Part shown: one piece after another, positions 11,320 to 64,000 of the stretch
Numbering within the stretch: the first letter of the stretch is position 1
Layout of the letters: each line of letters opens with the position of its first letter
Assembly: GCF_019633745.1 (NCBI RefSeq)
Contig: NZ_CP037968.1
Location: 1,246,789 to 1,310,788, forward strand
Origin: Methanofollis formosanus
GTDB taxonomy: Archaea; Halobacteriota; Methanomicrobia; Methanomicrobiales; Methanofollaceae
Direction: 5' to 3'
DNA: 64,000 bases
The notes under the pieces: generated by a model
Seen by the model: the letters and a program-made list of their open reading frames with translations, nothing else
Database searches by the model: none
Told to the model about the DNA's origin: nothing
Position numbers and translations under genes: made by a program

Positions 11320-12110
11320 GACGGCACGTTCCTGATCAGCACGTCACCCCGTGCCGTCCCCCGTCCTATCTTTTCGCGAGATGACAGAACAAGTTCGGTG
11401 AAGGGGGACGGCATGTTCTGAACATTACGCCGTCCTGTTTTCATGACCCCGGAGATAGAACCGGCATGAGAGAGAGCCGATCTGTAGCAGGAGCACACCA
11501 CTCTTCGCCGTCCCCGTCCTATCTTCTCGCGAGACGGCAGAACAGATTCGATGATGAGGGGGCGGCATGTTCTGATCAGCACGCGGTCCTGGTGCCATGA
11601 CCCCGAAGATAGAACCTGGACGGGAGAGTGCCGATCTACTCTCAGCGGGATCATGCGTTTCGTGCCGTCCCCCGTCCTATCTTCTCGCGAGAAGGCAGGA
11701 CAGATTCGATGATGAGGGGACGGCACGTTCTAATCACCACGCCGTCCCAGCTGTCATGACCCCGAAGATCGAACCAACATGAGAGAGAGAGCCGATCTGT
11801 AGCAGGAGCACACCACTCTTCGCCGTCCCCCGTCCTATCTTCTCGCGAGAAGGCAGAACAGATTCAAGGATGAGGGGATGGCACGGTCTGATCACCACGC
11901 TGTCCCCGCTGTCATGACCCCGGAGATAGAACTGGCATGAGAGAGAGCCGATCTGTAGCAGGAGCACGCCACTCTTCGCCGCCACCGTCCTATCTTCTCG
12001 CGAGACAGCAGAACAGATCATGTGACAGAGGGCGGCACGTTCTAATCACCACGCCGTCCCCGCTGTCATGACCCCGAAGATCGAACCCGCACAGAAGAGC
12101 ACCGATACTC
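11320..12110 (-). repeat. Tandem intergenic repeat array 2 (5 units, minus orientation)
   Basis: The box CATGACCCCGGAGATAGAAC, reverse complement of that in array 1, occurs near 11442, 11596, 11754, 11912 and 12066, spaced 154-158 bp. Between boxes lie TATCTTCTCGCGAGACGGCAGAACAGAT and GGACGGC...GCCGTCC arms. The array fills the gap between two convergent genes (10504-11268 and rpl12). 12111-12216 shows only the rpl12 terminator beyond it. Confidence 0.9.
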
Positions 12111-21861: not shown

Positions 21862-21906
21862 ACCATGATCTTTGACGGCGGAGACCTAAACCCTCCCGCT
21901 GATTTT

Positions 21907-21922
21907 AGAAACTTATATATAC
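21907..21922. promoter_or_regulatory. Divergent TATA-box promoter (SLOG gene / deacetylase gene)
   Basis: ACTTATATATACT is nearly symmetric. On the plus strand it lies about 30 bp before ATG 21945, predicting a leaderless mRNA. On the minus strand it would serve the SLOG gene with a leader of about 25 nt. Confidence 0.5.
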
Positions 21923-21944
21923 TCATTCTGGTCCAGATGGGGAC

Positions 21945-22979
21945 ATGCGGGGGGAAGTCAATCTTGAACGCCGGGCTATCTCTCTTTTTTCATCCTTCCT
22001 CAGCCCCATAGGCGCGTGCGACGCGTACAGAAACCTTCGGAACACTATCGGAAGCGGAACCACCATCTACACCTTCCACCGCGTCGGCCCCCAGCGTCAC
22101 GAATGGCTCATCCCGAGCATGGAGACCGCAGAGTTCGATCGGACGGTTCAATGGCTTGCCGGAACCCATCGCGTCCTCCCCCTCCACGAGGTCGTGAACG
22201 CCCTTGCAGAGGGGCGGGAACTCCCGCAGGGGACCGCCGCGATCACCTTCGACGACGGGTACCAGGACATCTACACCCACGCCTGGCCGGTGCTCCAGAA
22301 GTACGGCGTGCCGGCCACGGTCTTCCTCACCACCGACCCCGTCGACCGCCGGGAACTCTTCTGGTTCGACCGGTTCAGGCACATCATCCATACCACCCGG
22401 AAGACGAGGGTGGAGGTGGACGGACTCGGCGAGATCCCGCTCAGGACACAGGACGAGCGGTTCAGGGCGGTCACGCTCATCGAACGGTCCGTCCTCAAGG
22501 TCGCCGACGAGGCCGGGAAACTTGCGTGCATCGATGCGATCGAGGAGGACCTCCGGGTGGAACCGCCCGAGATCGGGGACGACTACATCCTCACCTGGGA
22601 CCAGGTCCGCGAGATGGGGCAGGACAGCGTCAGTTTCGGTTCCCATACCGTCACCCATCCCCAGCTCACCCACATCCCTCTCAGGCAGGCGGCGAAGGAG
22701 GTGCGGGACTCCAAGGAACGAATCGAACGCGAGACCGGGAAAAAGATCCTCTTCCTCTCCTACCCCAACGGGGGCGCCGCCGACACCTCGGCGGCGATCG
22801 AAACCCTGGTCGGGGATGCCGGGTATCTCTCGGCCTTTTACGGGGTTCCGGGCCCGGTCAGGGCAGGGAACAACCTTTTCAGGCTCAACCGGATCTTCTC
22901 GGGCTGGGACTTCAACACCTTCAAGTTCTTCAGCTCCGGGGCGTTTGCCGACCTTGCCTGGTTCCATTTCAGACGGTGA
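21945..22979 (+). CDS. Polysaccharide deacetylase (NodB-type)
   Basis: 344 residues. The NodB homology domain spans about 45-270: TIYTFHRVG, ITFDDGYQDIYTHAWPVLQKYG (motif 1; Asp-Asp of TFDDGY), SFGSHTVTHPQLTHI (motif 2, the HxxxH metal site), and FLSYPNGG further on. No clear signal peptide; the N-terminus is only mildly hydrophobic. It would remove N-acetyl groups from a glycan or glycan precursor. Six bases separate it from the next gene, so the two form an operon. Confidence 0.88.
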   Translation: MRGEVNLERRAISLFSSFLSPIGACDAYRNLRNTIGSGTTIYTFHRVGPQRHEWLIPSMETAEFDRTVQWLAGTHRVLPLHEVVNALAEGRELPQGTAAITFDDGYQDIYTHAWPVLQKYGVPATVFLTTDPVDRRELFWFDRFRHIIHTTRKTRVEVDGLGEIPLRTQDERFRAVTLIERSVLKVADEAGKLACIDAIEEDLRVEPPEIGDDYILTWDQVREMGQDSVSFGSHTVTHPQLTHIPLRQAAKEVRDSKERIERETGKKILFLSYPNGGAADTSAAIETLVGDAGYLSAFYGVPGPVRAGNNLFRLNRIFSGWDFNTFKFFSSGAFADLAWFHFRR

Positions 22980-22985
22980 TGCATC

Positions 22986-24053
22986 ATGAAGGTTCGGAGT
23001 ATCAACACCGACGAGTATGAAGGCCTTGCGGCCTTCCTGGCAACGCAGGTCGAAGCCGACCCGGCAGATCTCTGGATGCGCCGGTTTGCGATGTGGTGGG
23101 ACGAAAACCCCGCGATGGACGAGGAGATCCCGCGAGGGTGGACGATCGAGGACGACGACCGGGAGGTGGCCGGGTTCCTCGGGAATATCCCGGTCCCCTT
23201 CTGGGTGGACGGCAAAGAGGCCCGTGCCCGCGCCGCCTCTTCCTGGTATGTCCGCTCCGAGGTGCGCGGGGTGCTCGGGCTCCAGCTCAATATCGCCTAC
23301 TCGCGCCAGAAGGACGCCGACCTCTTCATCAGGACGACCCCGAACGAACTGGTCCAGGCGATGCTCCCGCGCCTGGGTTTTAGCAGGGTTCCCTTCCCGG
23401 TCGGCGGCCGGGAGTACCTCTCGGTCCGCGACTATGGGGGGGCGGCGGCGCTGTACGGTGCGAGTCCGGGGGCCGGCGGAACAAAACGGACCCTCACCTC
23501 CATCGCTCGCGGCCCGCTCTCCGCGGTCTCTCCCCTGCTCAGGAAAAAAAACGGCGTCGCACCCGGGTCATGGGAGGTCTGCACCGGGTGCGGCGATGAG
23601 TTTGCCGCACTCTGGGAGGCGCACCGCACGCCCGGCACCGCCTCGGTGGCGCGGGACCACGAGACCCTGGAGTGGCTCTACTTCTCGGAGACCGTCGCCG
23701 ATAAACGGACGGTCGTCGCATGCCGGGACGACGAGGGGGCACTCTCCGGCTACTGCGCCTTCGACCTGCTCACCCCGTACGGCGCCGGGGTGCGGGTGCT
23801 CCTCCTCCGCGACGCCTTTCTCCCGGACGGCTCGAGCGCACGGACGGCGGTCGCCGCAGGCAAAGCCCTTGCCGAGGAGAAAAAAGCGGCCACCGTCGCC
23901 TTCTGGCCGGCCTCGCCCGAGATGGAGGAGGTGCTCAGGGCCGAGACCACCACCTCCAGACCGATCGACTACAGTTACTTCTACCGCTGGGGCAGGACGG
24001 GCCCGGCCGATCTCCACCCCTCGACCATCGACCCTGACCGCGGGACGCTGTAA
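22986..24053 (+). CDS. GNAT/FemAB-like acyltransferase, probable surface-glycan modification
   Basis: 355 residues. Two GNAT-like halves are suggested: residues 1-140 (EVAGFLGNIPVPFWVDG, SSWYVRSEVRGVLG, LGFSRVPFPVGG) and about 200-340 (HETLEWLYFSETVADKRTVV, YCAFDLL, VRVLLLRDAF). This double arrangement resembles FemAB-like N-acyltransferases found with polysaccharide export loci. It is co-transcribed with the deacetylase, so a shared glycan substrate is likely. Acetyl-CoA or aminoacyl-tRNA as donor cannot be told from the sequence. Confidence 0.65.
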   Translation: MKVRSINTDEYEGLAAFLATQVEADPADLWMRRFAMWWDENPAMDEEIPRGWTIEDDDREVAGFLGNIPVPFWVDGKEARARAASSWYVRSEVRGVLGLQLNIAYSRQKDADLFIRTTPNELVQAMLPRLGFSRVPFPVGGREYLSVRDYGGAAALYGASPGAGGTKRTLTSIARGPLSAVSPLLRKKNGVAPGSWEVCTGCGDEFAALWEAHRTPGTASVARDHETLEWLYFSETVADKRTVVACRDDEGALSGYCAFDLLTPYGAGVRVLLLRDAFLPDGSSARTAVAAGKALAEEKKAATVAFWPASPEMEEVLRAETTTSRPIDYSYFYRWGRTGPADLHPSTIDPDRGTL

Positions 24054-24084
24054 AGATTTTCACGTACGGGAGGGGCGAGCGGGA

Positions 24085-25525
24085 ACACCATATCTCGCCG
24101 CCGCTCCCCGGCTATCCTTGCGCGAGACGGCGGAAAATTTCGGTGACGGGGGGACGGCACGGTCTGATCACCACGCCGTTCCGTTATCATGACCCTGAAG
24201 ATAGAACCCGGAGAGGGGAAGGGCACGCCGCTCTTCGCCGCCCCTCGGCTATCTTCTCGCGAGACGGCAGAACAGATCCTGCGAAGTGGGACGGCACGGT
24301 CTGATCACCACGCCGTTCCGTTATCATGACCCTGAAGATAGAACCCGGACAGAAGAGTGTCGATCATTTCCAGCAGGATCACGCCGCCCTGTGCCGTCCC
24401 CGTCCTATCTCCTCGCGAGACGGCAGAACAGATCCTGCGAAGTGGGACGGCACGTTCGGATCAGCACGCTGTCCCATCGTCATGACCCCGGAGATAGAAG
24501 CCGGACGGAAGAGAGTTGATCCATTTTCGGAGGGAACTCGCGTGATGCCGTCCCCGTCCTATCTTCTCGCGAGATGACAGAACAGATCGTGCGAGAGGGG
24601 GCGGCACGGTCTGATCATCACACCGTTCTGTTGTCGCGACCCCGAAGATAGAACCCGGACGGGAGAAAGTTGATCCATTTTCGGAGGGAACACGCGTGAT
24701 GCCGTCCCCGCCCTATCTTCTCGCGAGACGGCAGAACAGATCGTACGAGAGGGGACGGCATGTTTGGATCATCACGCCGTCCTGTTGTCATGACCCCGAA
24801 GATAGAACCCGGACAGGGGAAGGGCACATCACTCTTCGCCGTCCCCGCCCTATCTTCTCGCGAGACGACAGAACAGATCTTGCTAGAGGGGACGGCACGA
24901 TCGGATCACCACGCTGTCCCCCCGTCATGACCCCGAGGATAGAACCCGAACGGGAGAAAGTTGATCCATTTTCGGAGGGAACACGCGTGATGCCGTCCCC
25001 GCCCTATCTTCTCGCGAAAGAACAGAACAGATCGTGCGAGAGGGGACGGCACGTTCTGGTCAGCACGCTGTCCCCCCGTCATGACCCCGAAGATAGAACC
25101 GGGACGGGAGAGAGCCGATCGATTCTCAGAGGGGCACACCACTCTTCGCCGTCCCCGCCCTATCTTCTCGCGAAAGAACAGATAAGATTCGGGAATGAGG
25201 GGACGGCATGTTCGGATCATCACGCCGTCCTGGTGCCATGACCCCGAAGATAGAACCCGGACAGGGGAAGGGCACGCCGCTCTTCGCCGCCCCCGCCCTA
25301 TCTTTTCGCGAGATGACAGAACAGATCGTGCGAGAGGGGGCGGCATGTTCTGGTCACCACGCCGTCCCCCCGTCATGACCCCGAGGATAGAACCCGGACG
25401 GGAGAAAGTTGATCCATTTTCGGAGGGAACACGCGTGATGCCGTCCCCCGCCCTATCTTCTCGCGAGACGGCGGAAAATTTCGGTGATGAGGGGACGGCA
25501 CGGTCTGATCAGCACGCCCGTCGTT
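24085..25525 (-). repeat. Tandem intergenic repeat array 3 (9 units, minus orientation)
   Basis: The largest array. The box CATGACCCCGAAGATAGAAC (or close) occurs near 24187, 24324, 24481, 24636, 24788, 24926, 25080, 25238 and 25374, spaced 136-158 bp. Units fall in two lengths (about 137 and 155 bp) that differ by loss of a block near CGATC. It separates the convergent GNAT gene and acyl ligase gene. Many small frames here are by-products of the repeat. Confidence 0.92.
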
Positions 25526-25570
25526 CTCGACACCCCGCCCGCACACAAAGGTGGGAAACCAGAGAGAAGA

Positions 25571-27118
25571 TCAGAGGGCGGTGCCGTCCCCCGCCCCCCC
25601 TCTCCCGCGGTTCGGTCCGATCTCCTCGTACCCGCCGACCTCCTCCCCGGCCCGGATGGCGGCGACCACCGCCTTCAGCCTGACCAGGTCCACCTTGTCG
25701 GAGGCGTTGAGGGGCATCGACTCCGCAAAGACCACGACCTTCGGAACCTTGTACGACGGGAGGGAAGACTGGCAGAGCCTCATGATCTCGTCGCGGAGCA
25801 CTCCCGACGGCGCCCCGACCGGCTGGACCACGGCGACCGCCGCCTCGCCCATCAGTTCATCGGGCACTGCGACGACCGCCGTCTCGCTCACCGCCTCCAG
25901 GGTGTTGATGAGATCTTCCACCTCCCGCGGGGTGATCCGGTGCCCCGCCGACTTGATGATGGTGTTGCCCCGCCCCTTGAAATAGACGTACCCGTCCTCG
26001 TCGACGGTCCCGAGGTCGCCGGTGTACAGCCTGCCGTTCTTCAGTTTCGCCGCGGTCGCCACCGGGTCCCTGAAGTAACCCTGCATGGGCGTCCTGCTCA
26101 GGACCGTGATCTCGCCGATCTCGCCCGGGTCCACCGGTCGGCCGTCCGGGCGGAGAACCTCCAGGGCGACGCCCGGCATCCCCCTGCCCAGCGACCCCAT
26201 CCTCTCGAGGACCAGCGCCGGGTCGAGGACCGAGATCCTGGCCGTCGCCTCGGTGGCGCCGTAGTAGATGAAGAGATCCTTCTCAGGGAAGGCGTCGGTG
26301 ATCATTCTGACGTACTTCTCCTCCAGGTACCCGCCGCCGCAGGTCATGTACCGGAGCGTCGGGAGAGCCTTCTTGAGGAACGGCGTGCGGTGGATCAGGA
26401 TCTGGTAGGTGCTCGGCACGCCGTAGATCCCGGTGCAGCCATAGTTCTCGATCTCGGAGATGACGGTCCCGAGGAAGATCGCGGTGTGCAGGACCACGCT
26501 CCCGCCGACCCGGAGATGGGTGTGGAGGACCGAGACCCCGTAGCAGTAGGTGAAGGGCAGGACCGCACACGCCCGGTCTTCTTCGGTGAGGCGCATCACC
26601 TCCAGGATCGCTTCAGAGTTGGTCACCAGGTTCCAGTGGGAGATCATCACCCCCTTCTTCTCCCCGGTGCTCCCCGAGGTGAAGAGGATCTGCGCCGTCT
26701 CGTCGTCCGCCGTCTCGACCACCCACTCCTCGTCGGTCACCGGGAGTGCGGCACAGTCGGCCTCCGAGAAAAGCGGCCACCCGTCCCGGACCTTGGGGCG
26801 GTACTTCTCCTGGACGCAGCAACACGCGAACTCGCAGAGGTCGCCGATCTTTTCGAGTTGATCTTTTGCGACCCTCGTCTCGACGAGCACCGCCGTGTTC
26901 CCGCTCTTCATCGCGGCGAGGTAGCAGAGGGAGAAGTAGAGACTGTTCTCCGCGAGGACCAGGATCCGTTTCCCCCTCCCGCAGGTCTGCCCGAAGTGGC
27001 GGGCCAGGGCGTTCACCTTCCTGAAGAGGTCGCGGTGGGTGATCGTCTCCGTCGGCCCGGCGATGAAGAGGGCGTCGCGCTCCCGGCTCTTCTCCAGGAG
27101 ATAGTCGACGAAGTTCAT
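25571..27118 (-). CDS. Acyl-AMP ligase (acyl-CoA/acyl-ACP synthetase family)
   Basis: 515 residues from ATG 27118, which overlaps the acp stop by four bases. Adenylate-forming motifs in order: ILFTSGSTGEKKGVM (P-loop), YGVPSTYQ, YYGATEATARI, YTGDLGTVDEDGYVYFKGRGNTIIKSAGHRI (ends before 20 residues if split: YTGDLG and KGRGNTIIKSAGHRI), and a C-terminal lysine in NASDKVDL. It activates a carboxylic acid as acyl-AMP and loads CoA or, given the neighbouring ACP, the carrier protein. It resembles ligases of bacterial exopolysaccharide/exosortase loci. Chain specificity unknown. Confidence 0.88.
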   Translation of the reverse strand: MNFVDYLLEKSRERDALFIAGPTETITHRDLFRKVNALARHFGQTCGRGKRILVLAENSLYFSLCYLAAMKSGNTAVLVETRVAKDQLEKIGDLCEFACCCVQEKYRPKVRDGWPLFSEADCAALPVTDEEWVVETADDETAQILFTSGSTGEKKGVMISHWNLVTNSEAILEVMRLTEEDRACAVLPFTYCYGVSVLHTHLRVGGSVVLHTAIFLGTVISEIENYGCTGIYGVPSTYQILIHRTPFLKKALPTLRYMTCGGGYLEEKYVRMITDAFPEKDLFIYYGATEATARISVLDPALVLERMGSLGRGMPGVALEVLRPDGRPVDPGEIGEITVLSRTPMQGYFRDPVATAAKLKNGRLYTGDLGTVDEDGYVYFKGRGNTIIKSAGHRITPREVEDLINTLEAVSETAVVAVPDELMGEAAVAVVQPVGAPSGVLRDEIMRLCQSSLPSYKVPKVVVFAESMPLNASDKVDLVRLKAVVAAIRAGEEVGGYEEIGPNRGRGGAGDGTAL

Positions 27119-27369
27119 TCCTCTCCCTCCTCGAGGTGGGAGAAGACGACCGCTTTGACCCTGCCGAAGTCCTCCATCTCCACGATCTCCTCCATCTCCA
27201 GGGTGATCCCGAAGGCCTCCTCCAGGGCCGCCACCAGTTCGAGGTGCTTGAGCGAGTCCCAGAGTTCGTGCGAGTTGTAACCGATATCGTCGGAGAGGTC
27301 CGATTCCCGTACACCGATCACGTCGCAGAATATCTTCTCTATCCTCTGTTGTTGTGGTCCCTTCTCCAT
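27115..27369 (-). CDS. acpP: Acyl carrier protein
   Basis: 84 residues, acidic, four-helix ACP pattern. The phosphopantetheine serine lies in LWDSLKHLEL (about residue 39), and ITLEMEEIVEMEDFGRV is the usual helix III/IV region. Predicted substrate of the holo-ACP synthase encoded just upstream (31-nt overlap) and acceptor for the acyl ligase (4-nt overlap). Archaeal lipids are isoprenoid ethers, so an ACP is not expected for membrane synthesis and a specialised acylation is more likely. Confidence 0.88.
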   Translation of the reverse strand: MEKGPQQQRIEKIFCDVIGVRESDLSDDIGYNSHELWDSLKHLELVAALEEAFGITLEMEEIVEMEDFGRVKAVVFSHLEEGEE

Positions 27370-27734
27370 CCGTCCCCCTCCGTCGCAAGCGCACAGGCGA
27401 GCGCAATGTCCCCATCGTGCGAGAGACTGACGAGGACAGTGACCATACTTGCATCACGACATATTAAAGTAACGGAGGGCACCCCTGACGGCCCGTTGGT
27501 GATCTCGATTTCGTTCATTGCAATGCCGTCGATCCCCATGGAGGAGAGGGCTTTGGTCACCGCTTCCTTGCCGGCGAACCTGGCGGCGAGGTGGGGGGCC
27601 GGATGCTCCTTCGAGAAACAATACGCGATCTCTTTTTCGGTGAAGACGCGTTCGAGGAAGCGGCGGTCGCGTTCCGGGGTCTTGCCCTCGAAACGGCTGA
27701 TCAAAACGACGTCGGTGCCGATGCCGGGGGTCAT
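27339..27734 (-). CDS. acpS: Holo-[acyl-carrier-protein] synthase
   Basis: 131 residues, AcpS-type phosphopantetheinyl transferase. GIGTDVVLISRFEG is the metal-binding strand (Asp), FTEKEIAYC follows, and RFAGKEAVTKAL is the second signature with catalytic Glu/Lys; VSLSHDGDIALACAL completes the fold. It moves phosphopantetheine from CoA to the ACP serine. First gene of a three-gene overlapping operon, acpS-acp-ligase. Confidence 0.9.
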   Translation of the reverse strand: MTPGIGTDVVLISRFEGKTPERDRRFLERVFTEKEIAYCFSKEHPAPHLAARFAGKEAVTKALSSMGIDGIAMNEIEITNGPSGVPSVTLICRDASMVTVLVSLSHDGDIALACALATEGDGWRRDHNNRG

Positions 27735-27887
27735 CAGGGCGGAGATGGTGCGGCGGGGGATATAGATGTTGTGGAGTGGGGGAGCGTCGAAGAGGTGAGA
27801 CGTCCCCTGCCGTCATCGATCGCTTTTTTCTCTTCGGAATATTTTCCGGACCGATATCCCGTTGGTCCCGCCGGAACAAAATGATCG

Positions 27888-27898
27888 TTATTATATAC
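27888..27898 (+). promoter_or_regulatory. TATA box of the zinc-ribbon/RDD gene
   Basis: TTATTATATAC lies about 30 bp before ATG 27924, predicting a leaderless transcript and supporting that start over the upstream in-frame one. Confidence 0.5.
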
Positions 27899-27923
27899 TC
27901 GTTTGGAAATTTTACCCATTATT

Positions 27924-28463
27924 ATGTACTGCCAGACCTGTGGTGATCTCATTCCCGACGACTCCGCCTTCTGCCCGTCATGCGGGAAGCGCCTGGTCTC
28001 CGCCACACCCCCCGCTGAAGAAGCGCCCGTCGAATACGCCGGGTTCATCAGACGGGTCGCGGCATGTATCCTGGACTCCCTCGTCATTACGGCATTATTC
28101 TTTGTGCCGGCCACCCTTTTCGGCTTCATCCTCACAATCTTCATGGATTCTTCACAGGTCTTTTCGCTGCTGCTTGAGATCAAACCCATCATCTATATCA
28201 TCGCGTTCATCTTCTCCTTCTTCTACTACGCCTACCTGGAGAGCTCGCAGCGGCAGGCCACCGTCGGCAAGAGAGCCATCGGGATCGCGGTCACCGACGC
28301 CGACGGGGAGCGGATCTCGTTTGGCCGCGCCACGGTGCGGTATATCGGCAAGTTACTCTCCGAACTCTTTTTCCCGGTCTTCTTCATCATCGCTGTCACC
28401 AGGAAGAAACAGGGGCTGCACGACATGGCGGCCGGAACGCTGGTCGTCAAAAAGAGGGTGTGA
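27924..28463 (+). CDS. Zinc-ribbon plus RDD-family membrane protein
   Basis: 179 residues. MYCQTCGDLIPDDSAFCPSCGKR is a zinc ribbon with two CxxC knuckles. It is followed by an RDD domain with about three membrane segments (residues 50-75, 85-110, 140-160) and the characteristic Arg/Asp spots FIRRVAACILDSL and RQATVGKRAIG. RDD proteins have been linked to ion or antiporter functions in some bacteria; the archaeal role is unknown. Followed by another zinc-ribbon protein after three bases, probably an operon. Confidence 0.82.
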   Translation: MYCQTCGDLIPDDSAFCPSCGKRLVSATPPAEEAPVEYAGFIRRVAACILDSLVITALFFVPATLFGFILTIFMDSSQVFSLLLEIKPIIYIIAFIFSFFYYAYLESSQRQATVGKRAIGIAVTDADGERISFGRATVRYIGKLLSELFFPVFFIIAVTRKKQGLHDMAAGTLVVKKRV

Positions 28464-28466
28464 ACC

Positions 28467-29297
28467 ATGTACTGCCGGAAGTGCGGGGCAAAGATCGCCG
28501 ACGACACCCGATACTGCCACCGGTGCGGGGCGGCCGCCGACCCCGAGGAAGCGAGAGAACCCACACCCGCACCGACGGCCACGCCGAAGAAGGTCCACAT
28601 CTTCGACCGCGGAACACCCCTCTGGGCATGCGTCGGCATCGTCTTCTGCCTCGTCTTCGCCGTCTTCTTCGTCGGCGGCGACGAAGCATGGGAGACCGAG
28701 ATGGGGCCCGCGATCAGGAACGCCACCGACTACCAGGAGCCGGCCACCCGCGACTTCGCCCTCGCCCTGGTCAGGGCCGAGAACGCGGGCGAGTTCAACA
28801 TCGCGCAGGTCTGCGACATCTGGGAAGAGGTCTACGAAGAATGGACCTATGTCGACGACCCGAGGGGCACCGAGTACTTCTCTCCGGCAAGCCGGACCAT
28901 CGAGGCCGGACTCAAAGGGGACTGCGACGATTTCGCCGTGCTCCTGACCGCCCTGATGGCAGCAATCGGCGGCGAGGCGCGGGTCGTCGCCGCCTACGAT
29001 CTCTCCGGCAACGGCCACGCCTTTTCAGAGATCTATGTCGGCGACGACTACGAGGATCTCAAAGGCGCCGCTCACTACATCTGCGACCGCTACGAGTGCA
29101 CGACGATCTGGTACCACTGCCGGGAGAGCCTGATCGGGACCGAGTACTGGATCAACCTTGACTGGCAGAACGACCATCCAGGCGGTTACTTCTTCCCCTG
29201 CGACGACGCCTTCGCCGTCTATATCGACGGGACCGAGGAGTACCTCACCGGCGACGGGGATCCGGTCAGGAGCATCCGGTGCTGGACCGGGGGGTGA
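28467..29297 (+). CDS. Zinc-ribbon, membrane-anchored transglutaminase-like protein
   Basis: 276 residues. It has an N-terminal zinc ribbon (CRKCGAKIADDTRYCHRCG), a Pro-rich linker, one membrane segment at about 53-70, then a transglutaminase-like papain fold: GLKGDCDDFAVLLTALMAAIGG (Cys nucleophile), GNGHAFSEIYV (His) and YWINLDWQ (Asp). The catalytic part would face outside if the ribbon is cytosolic. Such domains act as peptidases or crosslinkers of surface protein. Start ATG lies three bases after the RDD gene. Confidence 0.82.
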   Translation: MYCRKCGAKIADDTRYCHRCGAAADPEEAREPTPAPTATPKKVHIFDRGTPLWACVGIVFCLVFAVFFVGGDEAWETEMGPAIRNATDYQEPATRDFALALVRAENAGEFNIAQVCDIWEEVYEEWTYVDDPRGTEYFSPASRTIEAGLKGDCDDFAVLLTALMAAIGGEARVVAAYDLSGNGHAFSEIYVGDDYEDLKGAAHYICDRYECTTIWYHCRESLIGTEYWINLDWQNDHPGGYFFPCDDAFAVYIDGTEEYLTGDGDPVRSIRCWTGG

Positions 29298-29623
29298 GCG
29301 GGCGGCGGTGTGGGGAGGGATACCGTCGGGGAGACGGTCGAGCCACTCTCCTCCTGGTCTGCAGGCTTTCGCCCCCCCGGCTCTCCTCATGAAGATTGAA
29401 ACAGGACGGCAGGCACTCGATCAAAGAAGGCCATCCTCACCTGATCCTCCCTTCAGCAATCCCCCGTCCATAGCCATCGCAGGGGTCCGGGGGCGCTCGT
29501 CCCCCGACGAAGGGACGGCCGTACACTTTTCATGAAGATCGGTGCGAGAGAACAGACAGACAATCAAAATAGAATAAACATGTCACGACTCTCCCTGGTC
29601 CCTTCCAAAAAAAGGTGGGAGGT
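29298..29623. other. Intergenic region between convergent genes
   Basis: It holds one REP-like hairpin (29461-29510) and degenerate pieces of the same repeats (29360-29460, for example CCGGCTCTCCTCATGAAGATTG). No gene is supported. Confidence 0.5.
29461..29510 (+). repeat. REP-like GC-rich hairpin, copy 3
   Basis: CCGTCCATAGCCATCGCAGG is followed by GGTCCGGGGGCGCTCGTCCCCCGA, related to the copy at 8044. Confidence 0.6.
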
Positions 29624-32600
29624 CTATCTCCTCCTCCACACGACAACGCCGACGACGAGGATCGCAATCGCCCCGCCGACGACGAGCAGCATCGTGGGGA
29701 AGGGGGGGTCGGTTGCAGGGGTCGCCGGGCCTGCGGCCGCCGGCGTCGCCAGCGTCTCGACGGTCTCCGCCGCTGCGGCGGGCGTCATCACCGGGGTCGA
29801 GAGCGGCGAAGGTTCGCCGCCGATCGCAAAGAGGAAGAAGCCCGGACTCCTGGCCGAGAAGTGCCAGGAGGTCTCGTCCTCCCCGTCGACGCTGGTCGGG
29901 AGAGGCTGCCACCCGTCGTTGTCGTAGCGGTACAGCGCCACGTCCGCCGGGTCGATGCCGTGCTCCTCGAGCCAGGTCTTCGGGACGCCGAAGGAGACAA
30001 CGATCTCCTCGATCGCGTCCTCGGTCGTGTGGTAGAGCGTCACCTCGTCGTACTCGTAGACCGTGCCCGCGGGTGCGTCGACGCCTGAGGGTCGACCGGT
30101 CTTTTCGATGGTTATCATGACCTTCGGGATATCTTCTCCGGCGGTCACCCTGACCTCGTAGATGCTCATGCCCTTCATCTTCATGGAGGCGCTCTCTCCG
30201 GCAGGGATCGACCCGGTCGACCCGGCCGAGATGGGTGAATGGCCGCTGTTGGATTCAGAGGATGGAGTGGCCGGGGGTGCGTGGACGGTGACGTGTGCGG
30301 TGGTGGTGTTGACGAATGTGCCGGTGCTCACGGTGAGGACGAGCGGGTAGGTGCCGGCCTTCTCGTAGGTGACGCTCCGGTTGATCTCGGCCGGGCTTGC
30401 GCCCTCGACCGTCCGGCCGTCGCCGAGGTCGAGGTGCCATGTCTCAGGCATCCCATCGCCGCTGACATTGATGCCGAGGGTGAAGGGTGCGTTGCCTTCG
30501 GTGGCCGAGAGGTGGAGGACGGGTGCGGGCATGCCGACGGTGACGTTCACGGTGCGGACGAGGGTGACGAGGTCGCTCCCTTCGCCCCATCCCGCCGTCA
30601 GGGTGGCGGTGTATGTCCCGGCCTTCTCGTAGGTGTGAGACGGCCAGTAGCACGGGCTCGATTCGTTGCCGTCGCCGAAGGTCCAGGTGTGGCGGTCGGG
30701 TTCGGGGTCGGGGAACCAGGTGTCGAAGGAGACGTTGAGGGGTGCGAGGCCCTGCCGGGGTCTCGCGTAGCCCCGGATCTCGACCTCGCCGACCTCGACG
30801 ATCACCGGTTCGGTCGCACCGACGGAGAGATTGATCACTGCCCGTCCGTAGGTCGTCGCCCCGACGATCTCGACGGTGTGGTTCCCGGCCGGGAGGAAGA
30901 ATGCATCCGAAGGCGGGGTGGGTGCGTTGGCGGCTCTCACCGGTGCGGGGGCCGGGAAGTGGTCGGCGGTGCGGGTGGTGTTCGTGCCGTCGATATGGAC
31001 GAACCCGCCGTGAGCGGAGGCGCGGACGAGCACGGTGCCGCGGTCCCCGCCGGTCGCCAGCGGGAGGTGGTCGGTGCCGAGGCCGGGGATGGTCAACGGT
31101 TGGTCGCAGATGCCGTCGCAGTCGATGTCAGGCCCCCATTCGGAGATGTTCTGTTCCGGATCATTGAGCCAGAGGTTGCCGCCGAGGTACGGGCCGCCCG
31201 CGATGGTGGTGCCGCGGGTGCGGGTGGCGTTGAGGACGCCGGTGGAGTGCTCGGCACGGACGTTGGTGGGGTTCTCGAAGCGGCAGTCGGCGACGAAGGT
31301 GTCGTTGCACCAGGAGAGATGAGTCCCGCCGCCGGCGGGTGCGTCGTTCCCGGTGAACACCGTCCTCTCCACCGAGAGGTTGTCGACCGCTCTGGCAGAG
31401 AGCGCACCGCCGGATTGGTCTGCCGCGTTCCCGGTGAAGGTGCAGTCGGCGATGGCGAAGTGCTGTAAGGGAACTTTGCTGGATCCGCAATGCCCGGTGA
31501 CGTTGATCGCACCGCCCGCATGGGCGGCGCGGTTGCCGGCGAAGACGGAGGTGTTGAGCGTGGCGGCATCGCATTGATAGAAGTATGCGCCGCCGCCGTC
31601 GTCCGCACTGTTCCCGTCAAAGGAGAGGGCGGTGAGCATGGCTTCATCGCAGTCCACGAGGTATGCCCCGCCGCCGAACTTCTCCGCGGTGTTGTTGACG
31701 AAGGTGGCGCCGGCGAGCACGGCCGCGGGGAGGGCGGCGCGATAAGATCCCGCAAAGTATGCCCCGCCGCCGAATCCTGCGGCGTTGCCGATGAAGGCGG
31801 TGCCGTTGAGCGTGGCGCAGGAGCCTTCGGCAATGTAAAAGCGTGCGCCGCCGCCCTGGTTGGGGGCGGTGTTGTCGGTGAAGGCGGTGTCGGTGATGGT
31901 GACGGGCCCATGTGAATACAAGAAGTCCGCCCCGCCGCCGCAACTGGAGGCGCGGTTGCCGGTGACGGTGGCGTTGGTGAACACGGAGTCGTTGCAGAAG
32001 AGGAACTGTACCCCGCCGCCGAATCGTGCGACGTTGTCGGTGAAGGTGGTGTCGGTGAGCACGGAGTCGTTGCAGGAGAGGAACCGTGCCCCGCCGCCGT
32101 ACCGGGTGGCGTTGTTGCCGGTGAATGCCGTCCTCTCGATCAGGAGGTCGTCGACGTACCCGGCGGAGAGCGCACCGCCGAATGCATCGGTTCCGTTCGC
32201 CGCGTTCCCGGTGAAGGTGCAGTCGGCGATGGTGAGGCGAGATGTCCCGGTGGCGTTGACCGCACCGCCGGCCTCTGTTGCAATGTTGTCGGTGAAGGCG
32301 GTGACGGTGAGCATGGTGTTATTCGACCGGAAGATGTTGGCGCCGCCGCCGTACCGGGCGCGGTTGTCGGTGAAGTGCGTGTTGGCGAGTGTGGCGTTGT
32401 CGGAGAAGACGAACTCGACGCCGCCGCCGTCATGCCCGGCGGTGTTGCGGGTGAAGGTGGTGTTGGCGAGGGCGGCGGCAGGGGTCTTGAAGAAGAGGGC
32501 GGCGCCGCTGTCGCGGGCGGCGTGGTTGTCGGTGAAGGTGGTGTCGGCAAGGGCGGGCGCGGTGCAGGAGACGAAGCAGGCCGCGCCGCCGTGCTGCGTC

Positions 32601-35600
32601 GCGTTGTTCCCGGTGAACTGTGTCCTCTCGACCGAGATGTCGTCGACGAACGCGGCCCCGAGCGCACCGCCGCACGCCTCGGTTCCGTTCACGGCGTTGC
32701 CGGTGAAGGTGCAGTCGGCGATGGTGAGGCGCGATGTCCTGGCGGCACTGATCCCGGCGCCCAGGCCTTCTTCGTCGTCCAGGCGGTTGCCCGAGATGTC
32801 GAGGCCGCGGAAGGTGGCGTTGGGTGCGGTGACGGTGAAGGCGGGGGCGGTGTGGTTGGTGCTGGTGATGAGCGGTTTGACGGGCGAGCCTTCCCACTGT
32901 CGGATGGTTACGTCGGAGGCGTTGATGACGATCCCGCCCTCGTACGCCTGCCCGGCCATGCCCCAGATGTGGATGGTGTCGCCCTCGCCGATCTCGGGGA
33001 TCTCCTGGAGACTGCTGAAGTTCCCGCTGATCGTCGAGACGTACCAGTCTATCGGGTGGGTGCTCTCCATGAGGTCGAAGGTGAGGGGGTCGTTCTCGCC
33101 GGCGGTGATGGTGAAGTCCTGCTCACAGGTGAAGAACCCTTCCTTGTGCACCGAAACGGTGTGGTTCCCAACGGGGAGGTAGAAGGCGCCGCCCGCGGTG
33201 CGGGTGGTGTTGGTGCCGTCGACGGAGACGAAGGCGTCGGCGGGGGTGGCGTTGATCTGGACGGTGCCGCGGTCGGGGTCGTAGATCAATGGGAGTTCGT
33301 CGGTGCCGAAGTTCGGGATGCTCAGGTTTTCGTCGCAGATGCCGTCGAAGTCGGCGTCCTTACCGCACTCCGAGATGTTCTGCGCCGGATCGTTCAGCCA
33401 GAGGTTGCCGCCGAGGTACGGGCCGCCGGCGATGGTGGTGCCGGAGGCGTAGGTGCCGTTGAGGACGGCGGTGGAACCGCGTGCATGGATGTTGGTGGGG
33501 TTGTCGAAGCGGCAGTTGGTGAGCGTGGCGGCAGTGCAGCCTCCGAAGCCTGCCCCGCCGCCGCCCTGTCCGGCGGTGTTGTCGGTGAAGGTGGTGTCGG
33601 TGAGTGTGGCGCCGGTGCAGAACTCGAAGTCTGCTCCGCCGCCGTAGTCGCCTGCGGTGTTGTCGGTGAAGGTGGTGCCGGTGATGTTGGCGGCATTGCA
33701 GAACTCGAAGATTGCTCCGCCGCCGTCGGAGGATGCGGTGTTGCCGGTGAAGGCTGTTCCCTCGACCAGGAGGGCGTCGACGTATTTGGCAGAGAGGGCG
33801 CCGCCGTCTGTGTTCGTCCCGTTCACGGCGTTGTCGGCGAAGGTGCAGTTCGTTATGGTGAGGCGCTGTAAGAGGTCTCCTGAAGTCCCGACGGCGTTGA
33901 TCGCGGCGCCGTTGGTATCGTTCAACGTGTTCCGCGAGATGTTGAGGTCGAGGAACGTCGCGTTGTCGGCGGTGACGGTGAAGGCCGGTGCGGTCTGCGA
34001 GATGGTGGTGATGAGCGGTTGGACTGGCGAGCCTTCCCACCGTTTCACGGTGACGTGCGGTTTGCCGATGACGACCCCGCTATCGTACGCGTGGCCTTCG
34101 ACGCCCCAGACGTGGATGGTGTCGCCCGTGCCGATCTCGGGGATCGCGGAGATGGTCGTGTAGTTGCCGGTGATCGTCGAGACGTACCAGTCCATCGGGT
34201 GGATGATCTCGATGAGGGTGAAGTCGAGGGGGTCGTTCTCGGCGGGGGAGACGGTGATCTTCTGTTCACCGGCGAAGTAGCCCGCCTTGTGCACCGAAAT
34301 CGTGTGGTTCCCGACCGGGAGGTAGAAGGCGTTGCCCGCGGTGCGGGTGGTGTTGATGGTGTCGACGTAGACGAAGGCGTCGGCGGGCGTGGCGTTGATC
34401 ACCACGGTGCCGCCGCCGTGCATGAGGGGGAGGTGGTCGGTGCCGAAGGCGCCGAGGGACAGCGGTTGGTCGCAGATGCCGTCGAAGTCGGCGTCCGCGC
34501 CCCGCTCGGAGATGTTCTGCGCGGGGTCCTGGAGCCAGAGGTTGCCGCCGAGGAAGGGCCCGCCGGCGATGTTGGTGCCGCGGGTGCGGGTGGTGTTGAG
34601 GGCGGTAGCGGCGGAAAATTCTGCATGGATGTTGGTGGGGTTGTCGAAGCGGCAGTTGGTGATGGTGGCGTCATCGCACCCAGAAAAGCATGCCCCGCCG
34701 CCGTCGTCAGTTGCGGTGTTGCCGGTGAAGGTGGTGCCGGTGAGCGTGGCGGCATAGCAGCCGAGGAATAATGCCCCGCCACCGTTGGTTGCGTTGTTGC
34801 CGGTGAAGGTGGCGTTGGTGAGCGCGGCATCATTGCAATTAAAGATCAATGCCCCGCCGCCGTTGGTTGCGTTGTTGCCGGTGAAGGTGGCGTTGGTGAG
34901 CGTGGTGCCATCGTAATTAGTAGCCCCCGAACCCCAGAAGCATGCGCCGCCGCCGTGGAGGGTTGCGGTGTTGCCGATGAAGGTGGTGCCGGTGAACGTG
35001 GCGTAATCGCAATCCTCGAAGAATCCGCCGCCGCCGTTGGTTGCGTTGTTGCCGGTGAAGGTGGTGGTGGTGAGCGTGGCGGCATAGCAACCACTGAAGT
35101 ATGTCCCGCCGCCGCTGCCGGATGCGTTGTTGTTGGTGAAGGTGGTGCCGGTGAGCGTGGCGAAAGAGCAACTACTGAAGGATGCCCCGCCGCCGGAGGA
35201 TGCCGTGTTGCCGGTGAAGGTGGTGTTGGCGAGCGTGGCGGCATAGCATGACTTGAAGCGTGCCCCGCCGCCGCTGCCGTCAGTCGCGCTGTTGCCGGTG
35301 AACGCCGTCCCCTCCACGAGGAAGGCGTCGACGTACCGGGCAGAGAGCGCACCGCCGCTTGCTCCCATCCCGGTCACCTTGTTCCCGGCAAAGGTGCAGT
35401 TCGTTATGGTGAGGCGCTCCAGGTGGCCGGTATAAGTCCCGAAGGCGTTGATCCCGGCACCGCGGCTTTGATCATAGTTCAGGTGGTTCTCAGAGATATT
35501 GAGGTCGAGGAAGGTGGCGTTGTTCGCGGTGACGGTGAAGGCCGACGCGCCGGAGCGATTGGTGATGAGTGGTTGCACCGGCGAACCCTCCCACCGTTTC

Positions 35601-37399
35601 ACCGTCACGTTCGGTTTGTCGATGACGAACCCGCCCTCGTACGTATGCCCGGCCACGCCCCAGATGTGGACGGTGTCGCCCGCGTCGAGGTCGGTGATAT
35701 TCAGGAGACTGGTGACGTTATCGTCACCGCCGAACTTCGAGACGTACCAGTCCTTCGGGTGTTCGACGGTCGGCTGGAGATCAAAGGTGAGGGGGTCGTT
35801 CTCGCCGGGGACGATGGTGACCTGCTTCTCGGCGGGGAGGTAGCCCTCCTTCTGCACCGAAATCGTGTGGTTCCCGACCGGGAGGTAGAAGGCGTTGCCC
35901 GCGGTGCGGGTGGTGTTGGTGTTGTTGACGAAGACGAAGGCGTCGGCGGGGGTGGCGTTGATCACCACCGTCCCGCCGCCGTGCATCAGCGGGAGGTAGT
36001 CGGTGCTGAAGATGCCGATGCCTGAGATGGTCAGCGTTCCGTCGCAGATGCCGTCGAAGTCGGCGTCCGCAGCCCGCTCTGAGATGTTCTGTTTGGGGTC
36101 CTGGAGCCAGAGGTTGCCGCCGAGGTACGGGCCGCCGGCGATGTTCGTGCCGCGGGTGCGGGCGGTGTTGAGAACAGCGGAGGACACCGTTATTGCATAG
36201 ATGTTGGTGGGGTTGTCGAAGCGGCAGTTGGTGATGGTGGCGGCATCGCACTCGTAGAAGTATGCCCCGCCGCCGTCCCTGACTGCGGTGTTGCCGGTGA
36301 AGGTGGTGCCGGTGAGCGTGGCGGCATTGCACCACCAGAAGCCTGCCCCGCCGCCGTGTTGTGCGGTGTTGTTGGTGAAGGTGGCGTTGGTGAGCGTGGC
36401 GGCATAGCAGTCGTAGAACCATGCCCCGCCGCCGCCGTCGTCTGCGGTGTTGCCGGTGAACGCCGTCCCCTCGACCAGGAGGTCGTTGACCAATAGGGCA
36501 TAGAGCGCACCGCCGTATGTATTCGTCCCGGTCACTGTGTTCCCGACAAAGGTGCAGTTCGTTATGGTGAGGCGCTCCAGGTGGTTTCCTATTCCTGAAG
36601 ACCCGACGGCGTTGATCCCGGCGCCGCCCTTACCGTTCAACTGGTTGTCGGAGATGTTGAGGTCGCGGAACGTCGCGTTGTTCGCGGTGACGGTGAAGGC
36701 CGGCGCCGTGCCGGAGCTATTGGTGATGAGCGGTTGCGCGGGCGAACCCTCCCACCGTTTCACCGTCACGTTCGGTTTGTCGATGACGAACCCGCCCTCG
36801 TACGTATGCCCGGCCGCACCCCATATGTGGACGGTGTCGCCGTCGCCGAGATCGGTGATATTCAGGAGGCCGGTGACGTTCCCGTTACCGGTCGCGGAGA
36901 CATACCAGTCCCTCGGGTGACCAGCACCGGCGCCGTCCGCCAGGACGACCGCCGGCGGGGCGGCCGCCGGAGCGGGTGCGACGGTGACATTGATATCGAC
37001 CGAAGAAGTGTTCGTGACCGACGCGCTCTCGTTGACGGCGGTGAGGCCGACGACGTGGGTGCCGGGTTCGTGGAACGTGTGATTGAAGGTCGATTCGTTC
37101 CCGACCGCCGCGACACCGTCGACCGTCCAGGTCCAGAGGTCGACCGCGAGGCCCTGCACCGCGGCGGTGAACCGCACGGTGAGCGGCACCGGGCCGGTGG
37201 GCGGATCGGCGGCGAGCGAGAGGTTGAGCGCCGGGGCGGTGGCGTTCGTGATGTTCAGAGGTGGTTCGGGTGGCGCAATGGTTTCGGACGGCCCCGCGCC
37301 ATCCTCGTCGCCGGCGACCGGCAGGACGAGACAGACCAGAACCGTCAGTAAAACGATGAAAAGAGCTACATTTTTCCGGAAGGGGGGATTTTTGTTCAT
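29624..37399 (-). CDS. Giant surface protein: parallel beta-helix modules with PKD and PEGA-like domains
   Basis: 2,591 residues from ATG 37399 (GAGGAGG upstream). Order: signal peptide (1-30, cleavage near PVAG); PKD-like domain (about 65-140); four large modules beginning near 161, 547, 1067 and 1447, each starting HP-x-DWYVS with DTVHIWG, then many right-handed beta-helix coils of the type LTNATFTGNTA...GGGA. PEGA-like domains (INATPADAFV, ending in GNHTISV) lie near 475, 995, 1376 and 2120; two PKD domains at about 2210-2370; a PGF-pre-PGF domain at about 2400-2530; then a Pro/Ala linker, a membrane helix and RRR. Rich in N-x-T/S sites. Probably a cell-wall-associated adhesin or sugar-binding protein. 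The repeated coils make it recombination-prone. Confidence 0.93.
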   Translation of the reverse strand: MNKNPPFRKNVALFIVLLTVLVCLVLPVAGDEDGAGPSETIAPPEPPLNITNATAPALNLSLAADPPTGPVPLTVRFTAAVQGLAVDLWTWTVDGVAAVGNESTFNHTFHEPGTHVVGLTAVNESASVTNTSSVDINVTVAPAPAAAPPAVVLADGAGAGHPRDWYVSATGNGNVTGLLNITDLGDGDTVHIWGAAGHTYEGGFVIDKPNVTVKRWEGSPAQPLITNSSGTAPAFTVTANNATFRDLNISDNQLNGKGGAGINAVGSSGIGNHLERLTITNCTFVGNTVTGTNTYGGALYALLVNDLLVEGTAFTGNTADDGGGGAWFYDCYAATLTNATFTNNTAQHGGGAGFWWCNAATLTGTTFTGNTAVRDGGGAYFYECDAATITNCRFDNPTNIYAITVSSAVLNTARTRGTNIAGGPYLGGNLWLQDPKQNISERAADADFDGICDGTLTISGIGIFSTDYLPLMHGGGTVVINATPADAFVFVNNTNTTRTAGNAFYLPVGNHTISVQKEGYLPAEKQVTIVPGENDPLTFDLQPTVEHPKDWYVSKFGGDDNVTSLLNITDLDAGDTVHIWGVAGHTYEGGFVIDKPNVTVKRWEGSPVQPLITNRSGASAFTVTANNATFLDLNISENHLNYDQSRGAGINAFGTYTGHLERLTITNCTFAGNKVTGMGASGGALSARYVDAFLVEGTAFTGNSATDGSGGGARFKSCYAATLANTTFTGNTASSGGGASFSSCSFATLTGTTFTNNNASGSGGGTYFSGCYAATLTTTTFTGNNATNGGGGFFEDCDYATFTGTTFIGNTATLHGGGACFWGSGATNYDGTTLTNATFTGNNATNGGGALIFNCNDAALTNATFTGNNATNGGGALFLGCYAATLTGTTFTGNTATDDGGGACFSGCDDATITNCRFDNPTNIHAEFSAATALNTTRTRGTNIAGGPFLGGNLWLQDPAQNISERGADADFDGICDQPLSLGAFGTDHLPLMHGGGTVVINATPADAFVYVDTINTTRTAGNAFYLPVGNHTISVHKAGYFAGEQKITVSPAENDPLDFTLIEIIHPMDWYVSTITGNYTTISAIPEIGTGDTIHVWGVEGHAYDSGVVIGKPHVTVKRWEGSPVQPLITTISQTAPAFTVTADNATFLDLNISRNTLNDTNGAAINAVGTSGDLLQRLTITNCTFADNAVNGTNTDGGALSAKYVDALLVEGTAFTGNTASSDGGGAIFEFCNAANITGTTFTDNTAGDYGGGADFEFCTGATLTDTTFTDNTAGQGGGGAGFGGCTAATLTNCRFDNPTNIHARGSTAVLNGTYASGTTIAGGPYLGGNLWLNDPAQNISECGKDADFDGICDENLSIPNFGTDELPLIYDPDRGTVQINATPADAFVSVDGTNTTRTAGGAFYLPVGNHTVSVHKEGFFTCEQDFTITAGENDPLTFDLMESTHPIDWYVSTISGNFSSLQEIPEIGEGDTIHIWGMAGQAYEGGIVINASDVTIRQWEGSPVKPLITSTNHTAPAFTVTAPNATFRGLDISGNRLDDEEGLGAGISAARTSRLTIADCTFTGNAVNGTEACGGALGAAFVDDISVERTQFTGNNATQHGGAACFVSCTAPALADTTFTDNHAARDSGAALFFKTPAAALANTTFTRNTAGHDGGGVEFVFSDNATLANTHFTDNRARYGGGANIFRSNNTMLTVTAFTDNIATEAGGAVNATGTSRLTIADCTFTGNAANGTDAFGGALSAGYVDDLLIERTAFTGNNATRYGGGARFLSCNDSVLTDTTFTDNVARFGGGVQFLFCNDSVFTNATVTGNRASSCGGGADFLYSHGPVTITDTAFTDNTAPNQGGGARFYIAEGSCATLNGTAFIGNAAGFGGGAYFAGSYRAALPAAVLAGATFVNNTAEKFGGGAYLVDCDEAMLTALSFDGNSADDGGGAYFYQCDAATLNTSVFAGNRAAHAGGAINVTGHCGSSKVPLQHFAIADCTFTGNAADQSGGALSARAVDNLSVERTVFTGNDAPAGGGTHLSWCNDTFVADCRFENPTNVRAEHSTGVLNATRTRGTTIAGGPYLGGNLWLNDPEQNISEWGPDIDCDGICDQPLTIPGLGTDHLPLATGGDRGTVLVRASAHGGFVHIDGTNTTRTADHFPAPAPVRAANAPTPPSDAFFLPAGNHTVEIVGATTYGRAVINLSVGATEPVIVEVGEVEIRGYARPRQGLAPLNVSFDTWFPDPEPDRHTWTFGDGNESSPCYWPSHTYEKAGTYTATLTAGWGEGSDLVTLVRTVNVTVGMPAPVLHLSATEGNAPFTLGINVSGDGMPETWHLDLGDGRTVEGASPAEINRSVTYEKAGTYPLVLTVSTGTFVNTTTAHVTVHAPPATPSSESNSGHSPISAGSTGSIPAGESASMKMKGMSIYEVRVTAGEDIPKVMITIEKTGRPSGVDAPAGTVYEYDEVTLYHTTEDAIEEIVVSFGVPKTWLEEHGIDPADVALYRYDNDGWQPLPTSVDGEDETSWHFSARSPGFFLFAIGGEPSPLSTPVMTPAAAAETVETLATPAAAGPATPATDPPFPTMLLVVGGAIAILVVGVVVWRRR

Positions 37400-37487
37400 T
37401 TCAGGCCTCCTCGGGAAACGAACGCCGGCATCATGGGGTATGCGGCGATACCGTTCCCGTGGGCGCACAAAGATTCGCGGGATTTAA

Positions 37488-37506
37488 TTTTTGGTATTAT
37501 ATATGT
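37488..37506 (-). promoter_or_regulatory. TATA-box promoter of the giant surface protein
   Basis: The minus strand reads ACATATATAATACC about 100 bp before the ATG at 37399, predicting a leader of roughly 70 nt that contains the strong GAGGAGG site. Confidence 0.5.
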
Positions 37507-37832
37507 TTTTATTTTGAGCTCAATGGGCCGCGGGCGATCGAAAAAAAGATCGATTCCGGGAGGATTGGATTAAAATGATCGAGGTGCCCGACCCCCGCCC
37601 TGGAAGCAGAGGGAGATCATGAAAACTATCGAGTCGGCCCGGCGCCCACTTCACGCGAGGCCGGAGAGCCCTCACGGTCACGTCCGAACCATTCTCCGCG
37701 ACCTTTTGATCTCGGCCCGCCGGAAAATTTTCGACGCCCCCGCCCACCCCATTGAAAAACTACTTTGGCTCTCAGGACGCACCTGACTCCTCATGAACAC
37801 CCGCCCTTCACCGGGCGGTGAGAGGGATCGAG
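37507..37832. other. Intergenic region upstream of ileS
   Basis: About 325 bp between divergent genes. A hairpin CCGCCC-TTCACC-GGGCGG (about 37802-37819) sits just before the ileS start and could affect its translation. A 75-codon minus-strand frame is unsupported. Confidence 0.45.
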
Positions 37833-43984: not shown

Positions 43985-45175
43985 AGTGCGGGGATCAGTA
44001 TCAGCAGCAGACTCGGCATCCATCCGGTCATCGAACCCCACGAGATCGACGGCAAACATGTCGTCATCGTCACCGTCGAACAGAGCCGCACCCCCGTCGC
44101 CTGTGACGGTCGGTATTACACCCGCGTCGGCGACACCACCCGCGAGATGCTCCCCGACGAACTACGAGGCTTTTTCCAGCAGAGCATCGAATGGGACAGC
44201 GTCGTCGGGACGTTCGACCCCGATGAGATCGACGGGGAGAGCGTCGGGCGGTTTCTCGCCCTCGCCCGCACGGCCGGCCGGATCACGGCCGTCGACCCCG
44301 ACGAATCGGTCGACGCCGTCCTTCGCCGCCTCGGCCTCATCAGGGACGGCTGCATCACCAACGGCGCCGTCGTCCTCTTCGGCAAGGATCCGCAGAAATA
44401 TTTCCCGAACACCGTCCTCAGGATCGGCAGGTTCAGGCGGGCCGACATCATCATCGGCGACCACGAGATCAGGGGTAATCTCTTCTCTCAGTTCGAGGAA
44501 GCAGAGAGGATCATCAAGAACTATATCGGCGTCCGCTACGACATCTCAGAGGAGGCGATGCAGGAGTCCTTCCAGAGGAAGGAGGTCTGGGAATACCCTC
44601 TCCCGGCGATCCGTGAGGCCCTGCTCAACGCGCTCATCCATCGGGACTACTTCAACAACACCGTCCAGACGCAGGTCAGGATCTTCGACGATGCCATCCG
44701 CTTTCACAACCCGGGCCGCCTCCCCGAGGGCGTCACCATCGAGATGATCCTCAGGGAACACTCTTCCTATCTGCGCAACCCGAAGGTTGCAGATGTCTTT
44801 TATCGTGCCGGACTCGTGGAGCGTTACGGGTCGGGGATCGAACGGATCATCCGGGCACTGAAGGAGGAAAAACTGCCCGCACCCGAGATCGTCAGCACGC
44901 CCCTCGGCTTCACGATCACCATGCGCACGAGTCCCTTCACCGATGGATTTCTGCAGGAACTCGGTCTGAACGATCGGCAGATCGCGGCCTTTTCCTTCCT
45001 CAAGGAGCATGGCGCCATCACCAACGGCCAGTATCAGAAACTCAACTCCGTCGTCGCCAGCACCGCACTGAAAGACCTGAACGACATGGTCACAAAGCAT
45101 GTCCTTGAACGACGGGGCACGTCGCGGCGGGACATGCACTATGTCCTCGTTCGGGGAGGCGAGGGGTCACCGTGA
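43985..45175 (+). pseudogene. N-terminally truncated AlbA_2/Schlafen-type ATP-binding regulator
   Basis: In frame from just after a stop at 43982, the protein reads HPVIEPHEIDGKHVVIVTV and GRYYTRVGDTTREM, the end of an AlbA_2-type domain. It continues through the C-terminal parts: FPNTVLRIGRF, LPAIREALLNALIHRDYF, GRLPEGVTIEM, RNPKVADVFYRAGLVERYGSGIERI, and a final winged helix. About 90 N-terminal residues expected in the family are missing, and no start codon occurs before ATG 44147 (342 residues from there). The truncation point lies next to the zinc-ribbon remnant, suggesting a deletion joined two element genes. A shortened product from 44147 may still be made. Confidence 0.65.
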
Positions 45176-45505
45176 TGATGCGTGATGAACGCGTGATGAT
45201 GCGTGATGAACGCGTGATGATGCGTGATGAACGCGTGATGATGCGTGATGAACGCGTGATGATGCGTGATGAACGCGTGATGATGCGTGATGAACGCGTG
45301 ATGATGCGTGATGAACGCGTGATGATGCGTGATGAACGCGTGATGAACGCGTGATGAACGCGTGATGATGCGTGATGATGCGTGATGAACGCGTGATGAT
45401 GCGTGATGAACGCGTGATGAACGCGTGATGATGCGTGATGATGCGTGATGATGCGTGATGATGCGTGATGATGCGTGATGATGCGTGATGAACGCGTGAT
45501 GATGC
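45172..45505. repeat. 21-bp satellite (10+11-bp subunits)
   Basis: GTGATGATGC (10 bp) and GTGATGAACGC (11 bp) alternate strictly over about eight 21-bp periods (45174-45340). They then occur in irregular order, with a run of the 10-bp form at 45430-45490. It begins at the stop codon of the truncated AlbA_2 gene. The frame across it on either strand encodes a heptad repeat and is an artefact of the 21-bp period. Confidence 0.93.
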
Positions 45506-63888: not shown

Positions 63889-64000
63889 GTTGTGGGCCAC
63901 AAACCCGTTGGCGTCGAAGGCGTTCACGCCCGGCACCTGCACGTCGTAGACCGCCTCGGTACCGGCGGCGGCGACCGATGCGACGGTCGCAACATACCGT
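63889..64000 (-). CDS. C-terminal end of an intein within nrdJ (cut by window edge)
   Basis: In frame before the extein the protein reads VYDVQVPGVNAFDANGFVAHN, then Cys. This is the C-terminal splicing region of inteins: block F (VYDVQVPG...F.ANGFV) and block G (AHN/C) with the terminal Asn and penultimate His needed for branch resolution, and Cys as the +1 residue. 37 intein residues are visible; the N-terminal splice blocks and any homing endonuclease lie beyond base 64000. Confidence 0.93.

Follow-up and report, generated by a model that had tools for sequence, protein, structure and literature searches.

The acyl-carrier cassette found in a 64,000-nucleotide stretch of the Methanofollis formosanus genome (hereafter the window) would be, with a probability that we set at roughly 0.55, the acyl-loading part of a module of five genes, which would exchange the N-acyl group on a precursor sugar of a surface glycan. 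The cassette comprises overlapping minus-strand genes for a holo-ACP synthase (acpS), an acyl carrier protein (ACP) and an acyl ligase, from which the original prediction proposed that an acid is activated, carried on the ACP and transferred without any chain building. This proposal is supported and fits everything found, with a biochemistry that we infer from the sequences, and it can now be extended, since the two genes facing the cassette (a deacetylase and a GNAT-type acyltransferase), a second copy of the cassette in the same genome and its recurrence in other methanogens had all been missed.

Family searches agree with the assignment of each of the three cassette genes. The acpS gene (positions 27339 to 27734, minus strand, 131 aa) overlaps acp (27115 to 27369, minus strand, 84 aa) by 31 nt, and acp overlaps in turn the gene of the AMP-forming ligase (25571 to 27118, minus strand, 515 aa) by 4 nt, as calculated from their coordinates. 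AcpS, a group I PPTase, matches PF01648 with 61.6 bits (cut-off 25), passes the curated TIGR00516 cut-off (70.8 against 59.8 bits) and keeps its metal and catalytic residues D8, E57 and K61 invariant among eight aligned sequences, and would modify the neighbouring ACP. The latter matches PF00550 (32.1 bits, cut-off 20.8) and carries the motif ELWDSLKHLELV, where the expected phosphopantetheine serine, S39 of a WDSL sequence, is borne out by the invariance of W37-D38-S39 among 11 aligned sequences. Comparison with two other Methanofollis genomes gave dN/dS values of 0.04-0.34 for the acpS, ACP and ligase genes, which correspond to purifying selection and, together with same-order orthologues in three other genomes of the genus, indicate that the cassette is not the product of chance.

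Two plus-strand genes face the ligase of the cassette, and they make plausible both an acceptor and a transferase for the acyl group. The first one (21945 to 22979, 344 aa) encodes a polysaccharide deacetylase of the CE4 type, which matches PF01522 with 85.2 bits (cut-off 23.1), shows TFDDG and HxxxH motifs when the sequence is read directly, and would expose the acceptor amine. The second one (22986 to 24053, 355 aa) encodes a protein that itself matches no Pfam family, whereas 8 of the 13 members of its family match Acetyltransf_9. A profile search of solved-structure sequences gave one weak match alone. An AlphaFold model built from 14 sequences reached a pLDDT of 81 and was used in place of a poor one built from 8 sequences (pLDDT 46); Foldseek aligned it over its full length with Eis2 and N-myristoyltransferase (E ~1e-13), which likewise hold two GNAT domains per chain, but at a TM of ~0.55 and an identity of 10-15%. 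Judged by this modelled fold, the protein is a tandem-GNAT acyltransferase. Reading by eye revealed no obvious N-terminal signal peptide in either the deacetylase or the GNAT protein, and the two enzymes therefore probably work on a precursor within the cell.

Comparison within the genus indicates that the real unit is this five-gene block, and not the three genes of the cassette. Deacetylase, GNAT, ligase, ACP and acpS genes stand side by side in three further genomes of Methanofollis, in which the GNAT and ligase genes directly adjoin, and are split in the window by a 1.3-kb tandem array (24249 to 25518) made of about 8-11 copies (8.4 according to Tandem Repeats Finder) of ~154/137-bp units, which we place outside the proposed function. 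A stretch near positions 11734-12021 resembles this array when translated, and the array may thus belong to a dispersed repeat family. Deacetylase, GNAT and cassette co-occur in the same 4 of 12 Methanofollis genomes (G000, G085, G090 and G091), and these are also the only ones of the genus with a full-length deacetylase match; the genome G087 holds a different acpS operon, and its deacetylase match is just a weak one. A LOG-family gene and ileS are adjacent, 112-545 bp apart, in five genomes of the genus that do not carry the block, whereas 16 kb separate them in the window, which argues that the block was gained or lost as an island.

This island (21862 to 37817, from the LOG-family gene to ileS) contains, besides the five genes, those of RDD and transglutaminase-core proteins. 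It also holds the gene of a 2614-aa protein (29624-37468), probably a surface protein, in which TFTGNTAxxGGGA-type repeats are numerous and WRRR comes after a hydrophobic stretch at the C-terminus. Elsewhere in the window there is an open frame built of VMMRDER repeats (45172-45354), and another one (62461-63942), whose beginning reads ...FVAHNCGEQPLLPFESC..., resembles a C-terminal intein splice junction in ribonucleotide reductase.

Relatives of the GNAT protein are rare, as they occur in 10 of the 394 genomes of the phylum, and tblastn found none in plasmids. Outside Methanofollis, they adjoin a ligase at loci L080-L082 and L117, lie a few genes past an acpS-acp-ligase-luxE-luxC-fabG operon at L041, and are close to an ACP and an amidotransferase at L100. 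At L095-L098 they adjoin or lie near relatives of the deacetylase, with no ligase or ACP seen beside them, and none of the three (deacetylase, ligase and ACP) was seen within ~9 kb of the relative at L099. The relative at L096 (8938-10065; genome G442, same phylum, genus g65) shows one in-frame TAG, which could be a codon that is read through or the mark of a pseudogene. The four Methanofollis sequences in a tree of 48 ligases cluster with those linked to a GNAT (SH-aLRT 94), so the GNAT-ligase pairings of the window and of L080-L082 may go back to one event. AcpS is present in 46 of the 232 genomes of the class, many of them with ACP and ligase and often at glycan loci. A plasmid of Azospirillum ramasamyi carries, within an exopolysaccharide cluster, deacetylase, ACP, ligase, asnB, nadE and GNAT genes in a row, with pairwise identities to the window of 31% for the ligase and 25% for the deacetylase and a weakly similar GNAT (E 0.001). 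Another recurring set, spanning archaea and Bacteroidota, joins related ligases with ACP and with NAD-synthase-like and amidotransferase or asparagine-synthase-like proteins (L114, L115, L116, L121 and L134; no separate ACP was seen in L114).

The module could work as follows. AcpS would attach phosphopantetheine to the ACP serine, and the ligase would adenylate a carboxylic acid made beforehand, which is probably no alpha-amino acid, and charge the ACP with it. The deacetylase would strip an amino sugar of its N-acetyl group while this sugar is part of a precursor linked to a lipid or a nucleotide, and the tandem GNAT would then transfer the acyl group, carried by ACP (or CoA), to the freed amine, giving a new amide. 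Each of these reactions, their order and the surface-glycan acceptor are what we infer from the genes and their relatives. The scheme appears supported by the contiguity of the five genes, their joint presence or absence in the genus and the GNAT-ligase and GNAT-deacetylase neighbourhoods found elsewhere; it is also supported by the grouping of the window ligase with GNAT-linked ligases and by the modelled match of the GNAT fold to Eis2 and N-myristoyltransferases, and, by analogy, by the Azospirillum locus with the same four roles and the related archaeal cassettes in glycan clusters. No glycosyltransferase adjoins the block in the window, and the link with glycans rests on the deacetylase and on the relatives. 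Further points against the scheme are the GNAT relatives at L095-L098 and L099, the lack of a Pfam match for the window GNAT, the possible single origin of the window and L080-L082 pairings, and the weak similarity of the Azospirillum GNAT. An archaeal tandem GNAT that depends on acyl-ACP and puts a preformed acid in place of the acetyl group on a surface amino sugar is a more tentative proposal, to which we give somewhat less than even odds.

The nature of the acceptor admits a different reading, where the GNAT would N-acylate a protein (at a lysine or the N-terminus) or a small amine instead of a sugar, with the deacetylase serving elsewhere. The enzymes with the nearest folds act in fact on protein or small-molecule amines, and the block shares its island with the large surface protein and the transglutaminase-core protein. 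However, the deacetylase is present in four of the four blocks and lies also beside GNAT relatives in another family, and the GNAT is found among sugar-modifying or glycan-assembly genes at L041, L080-L082 and L100, which makes a non-sugar acceptor rather unlikely.

The donor of the acyl group leads to a second alternative. The ligase belongs to the ANL superfamily (PF00501, 195 bits; PF13193, 58 bits), with TSGSTGEKKGV, YGATEAT and YTGD motifs and the C-terminal lysine. In amino-acid A domains, an Asp residue holds the alpha-amino group; alignment to gramicidin synthetase shows that the window ligase has Gly where NRPS A domains hold this Asp, so an alpha-amino acid is an unlikely substrate. 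The exosortase A-associated ligase model TIGR03098 ranks among the top NCBIfam matches, in second place for the window ligase and in first for that of the second cassette, but the window ligase is not a member of this family (276.9 against a cut-off of 592.35). Among solved structures, a feruloyl-CoA synthetase is its best relative, and GNAT enzymes normally depend on CoA as their donor. The ligase could then be an ordinary acyl-CoA synthetase whose product is used by the GNAT, with AcpS and ACP serving an unrelated partner; also against the five-gene scheme, the GNAT could use acetyl-CoA independently of the ACP. We consider the acyl-CoA route unlikely, given that the ligase gene overlaps acp and that an ACP adjoins this type of ligase in most of the operon-bearing archaeal loci and in bacterial plasmid loci.

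The genome encodes one other ACP/AcpS pair, which is part of a second acpS-ACP-ligase cassette. LuxE, LuxC and a FabG-like reductase come after it, and the locus lies among glycosyltransferases. The products of this cassette show identities to those of the window of 45% (acpS), 45% (ACP) and 50% (ligase), and the luxE, luxC and fabG genes beside its acp and ligase are absent from the window block. The same gene order occurs in Methanoculleus, Methanocalculus, Methanoregula, Methanogenium and Methanomassiliicoccus, as well as in a Thermoplasmata bin and in a KSB1 bacterium, and in Methanohalophilus profundi (L102:8923-11574) ligase and LuxE form a single 884-codon open frame. Both this fusion and the similarity of the two ligases could suggest that the window cassette merely supplies acyl-ACP to the enzymes LuxE, LuxC and FabG encoded at the second locus. 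This is very improbable, as the second locus owns its acpS, ACP and ligase, and the block is kept in G085, G090 and G091, none of which has a LuxC over the cut-off, indicating that it needs no LuxE-LuxC pathway; a dependence on the LuxE/LuxC locus is largely refuted by these genomes.

A role in fatty acid synthesis was also rejected. Ketosynthase models hit a single locus of the genome, interpreted as a thiolase and HMG-CoA synthase pair, and this search found no fatty-acid ketosynthase in the genome, so a type II fatty acid synthase is not indicated; an MBOAT acyltransferase is likewise missing from the genome. The original prediction had argued against chain building from the neighbourhood of the cassette and had called for such a search of ketosynthases and acyltransferases, and its outcome agrees with it. 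That the cassette is a fatty acid synthesis remnant acquired from bacteria is hardly credible: ACP and AcpS are bacterial-type proteins, and archaea are said to do without ACP save for a few unrelated exceptions attributed to transfer (PMC3533463), but the reading is refuted by a genome without fatty-acid ketosynthase, the ACP scores far under the fatty-acid ACP cut-offs (22.9 against 70.45 for TIGR00517; 30.5 against 71 for NF002148), and the ligase clade is archaeal at the sampling used. In the 48-ligase tree, apart from one Nanohaloarchaea sequence, the archaeal ligases form one clade (SH-aLRT 98), which contains a single bacterial sequence, that of KSB1. The bacterial origin that phylogeny was expected to test is therefore unsupported for the ligase with this depth of sampling, in which bacteria entered only through patterns from archaeal ligases; given this bias, a bacterial source may still lie further back.

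Among known systems, the rfb tetronate genes of Vibrio cholerae O1 include an ACP, a ligase and a LuxC-like reductase that make an acid amide-linked to an amino sugar, and the window block differs from them in having no reductase step. Nothing usable on these tetronate genes, on ACP at exosortase loci or on the glycans of Methanofollis came out of a literature search. TIGR03098-type exopolysaccharide loci offer another parallel, with the deacetylase, ACP, ligase and GNAT of the Azospirillum relative in one cluster. The flagellin glycosylation islands of Aeromonas group II and Enterobacteriaceae hold an ACP, a 3-oxoacyl-ACP reductase, an AMP ligase, LuxE and LuxC, without acpS (PMC7874193, PMC4875605). 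These islands share with the window block an ACP with a dedicated AMP ligase and, as proposed here, a tie to surface glycans, and their full set, plus its own acpS, makes up the second cassette. In contrast, the window block lacks LuxE, LuxC and FabG, whose place is taken by a deacetylase and a tandem GNAT, and it resides in an archaeal host.

The use of a bacterial-type ACP on surface sugars has hardly been recognized in archaea so far. The spread of AcpS, ACP and ligase suggests that archaeal ACPs have a job in decorating these sugars, an idea open to testing in a genus of culturable methanogens, and the five-gene block names a set of enzymes, including a GNAT protein without Pfam assignment, in which both the donor and the acceptor can be sought. 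If the GNAT does depend on acyl-ACP, as tentatively proposed above, ACP would have a dedicated role in the acylation of archaeal glycans or surface proteins, outside lipid synthesis.
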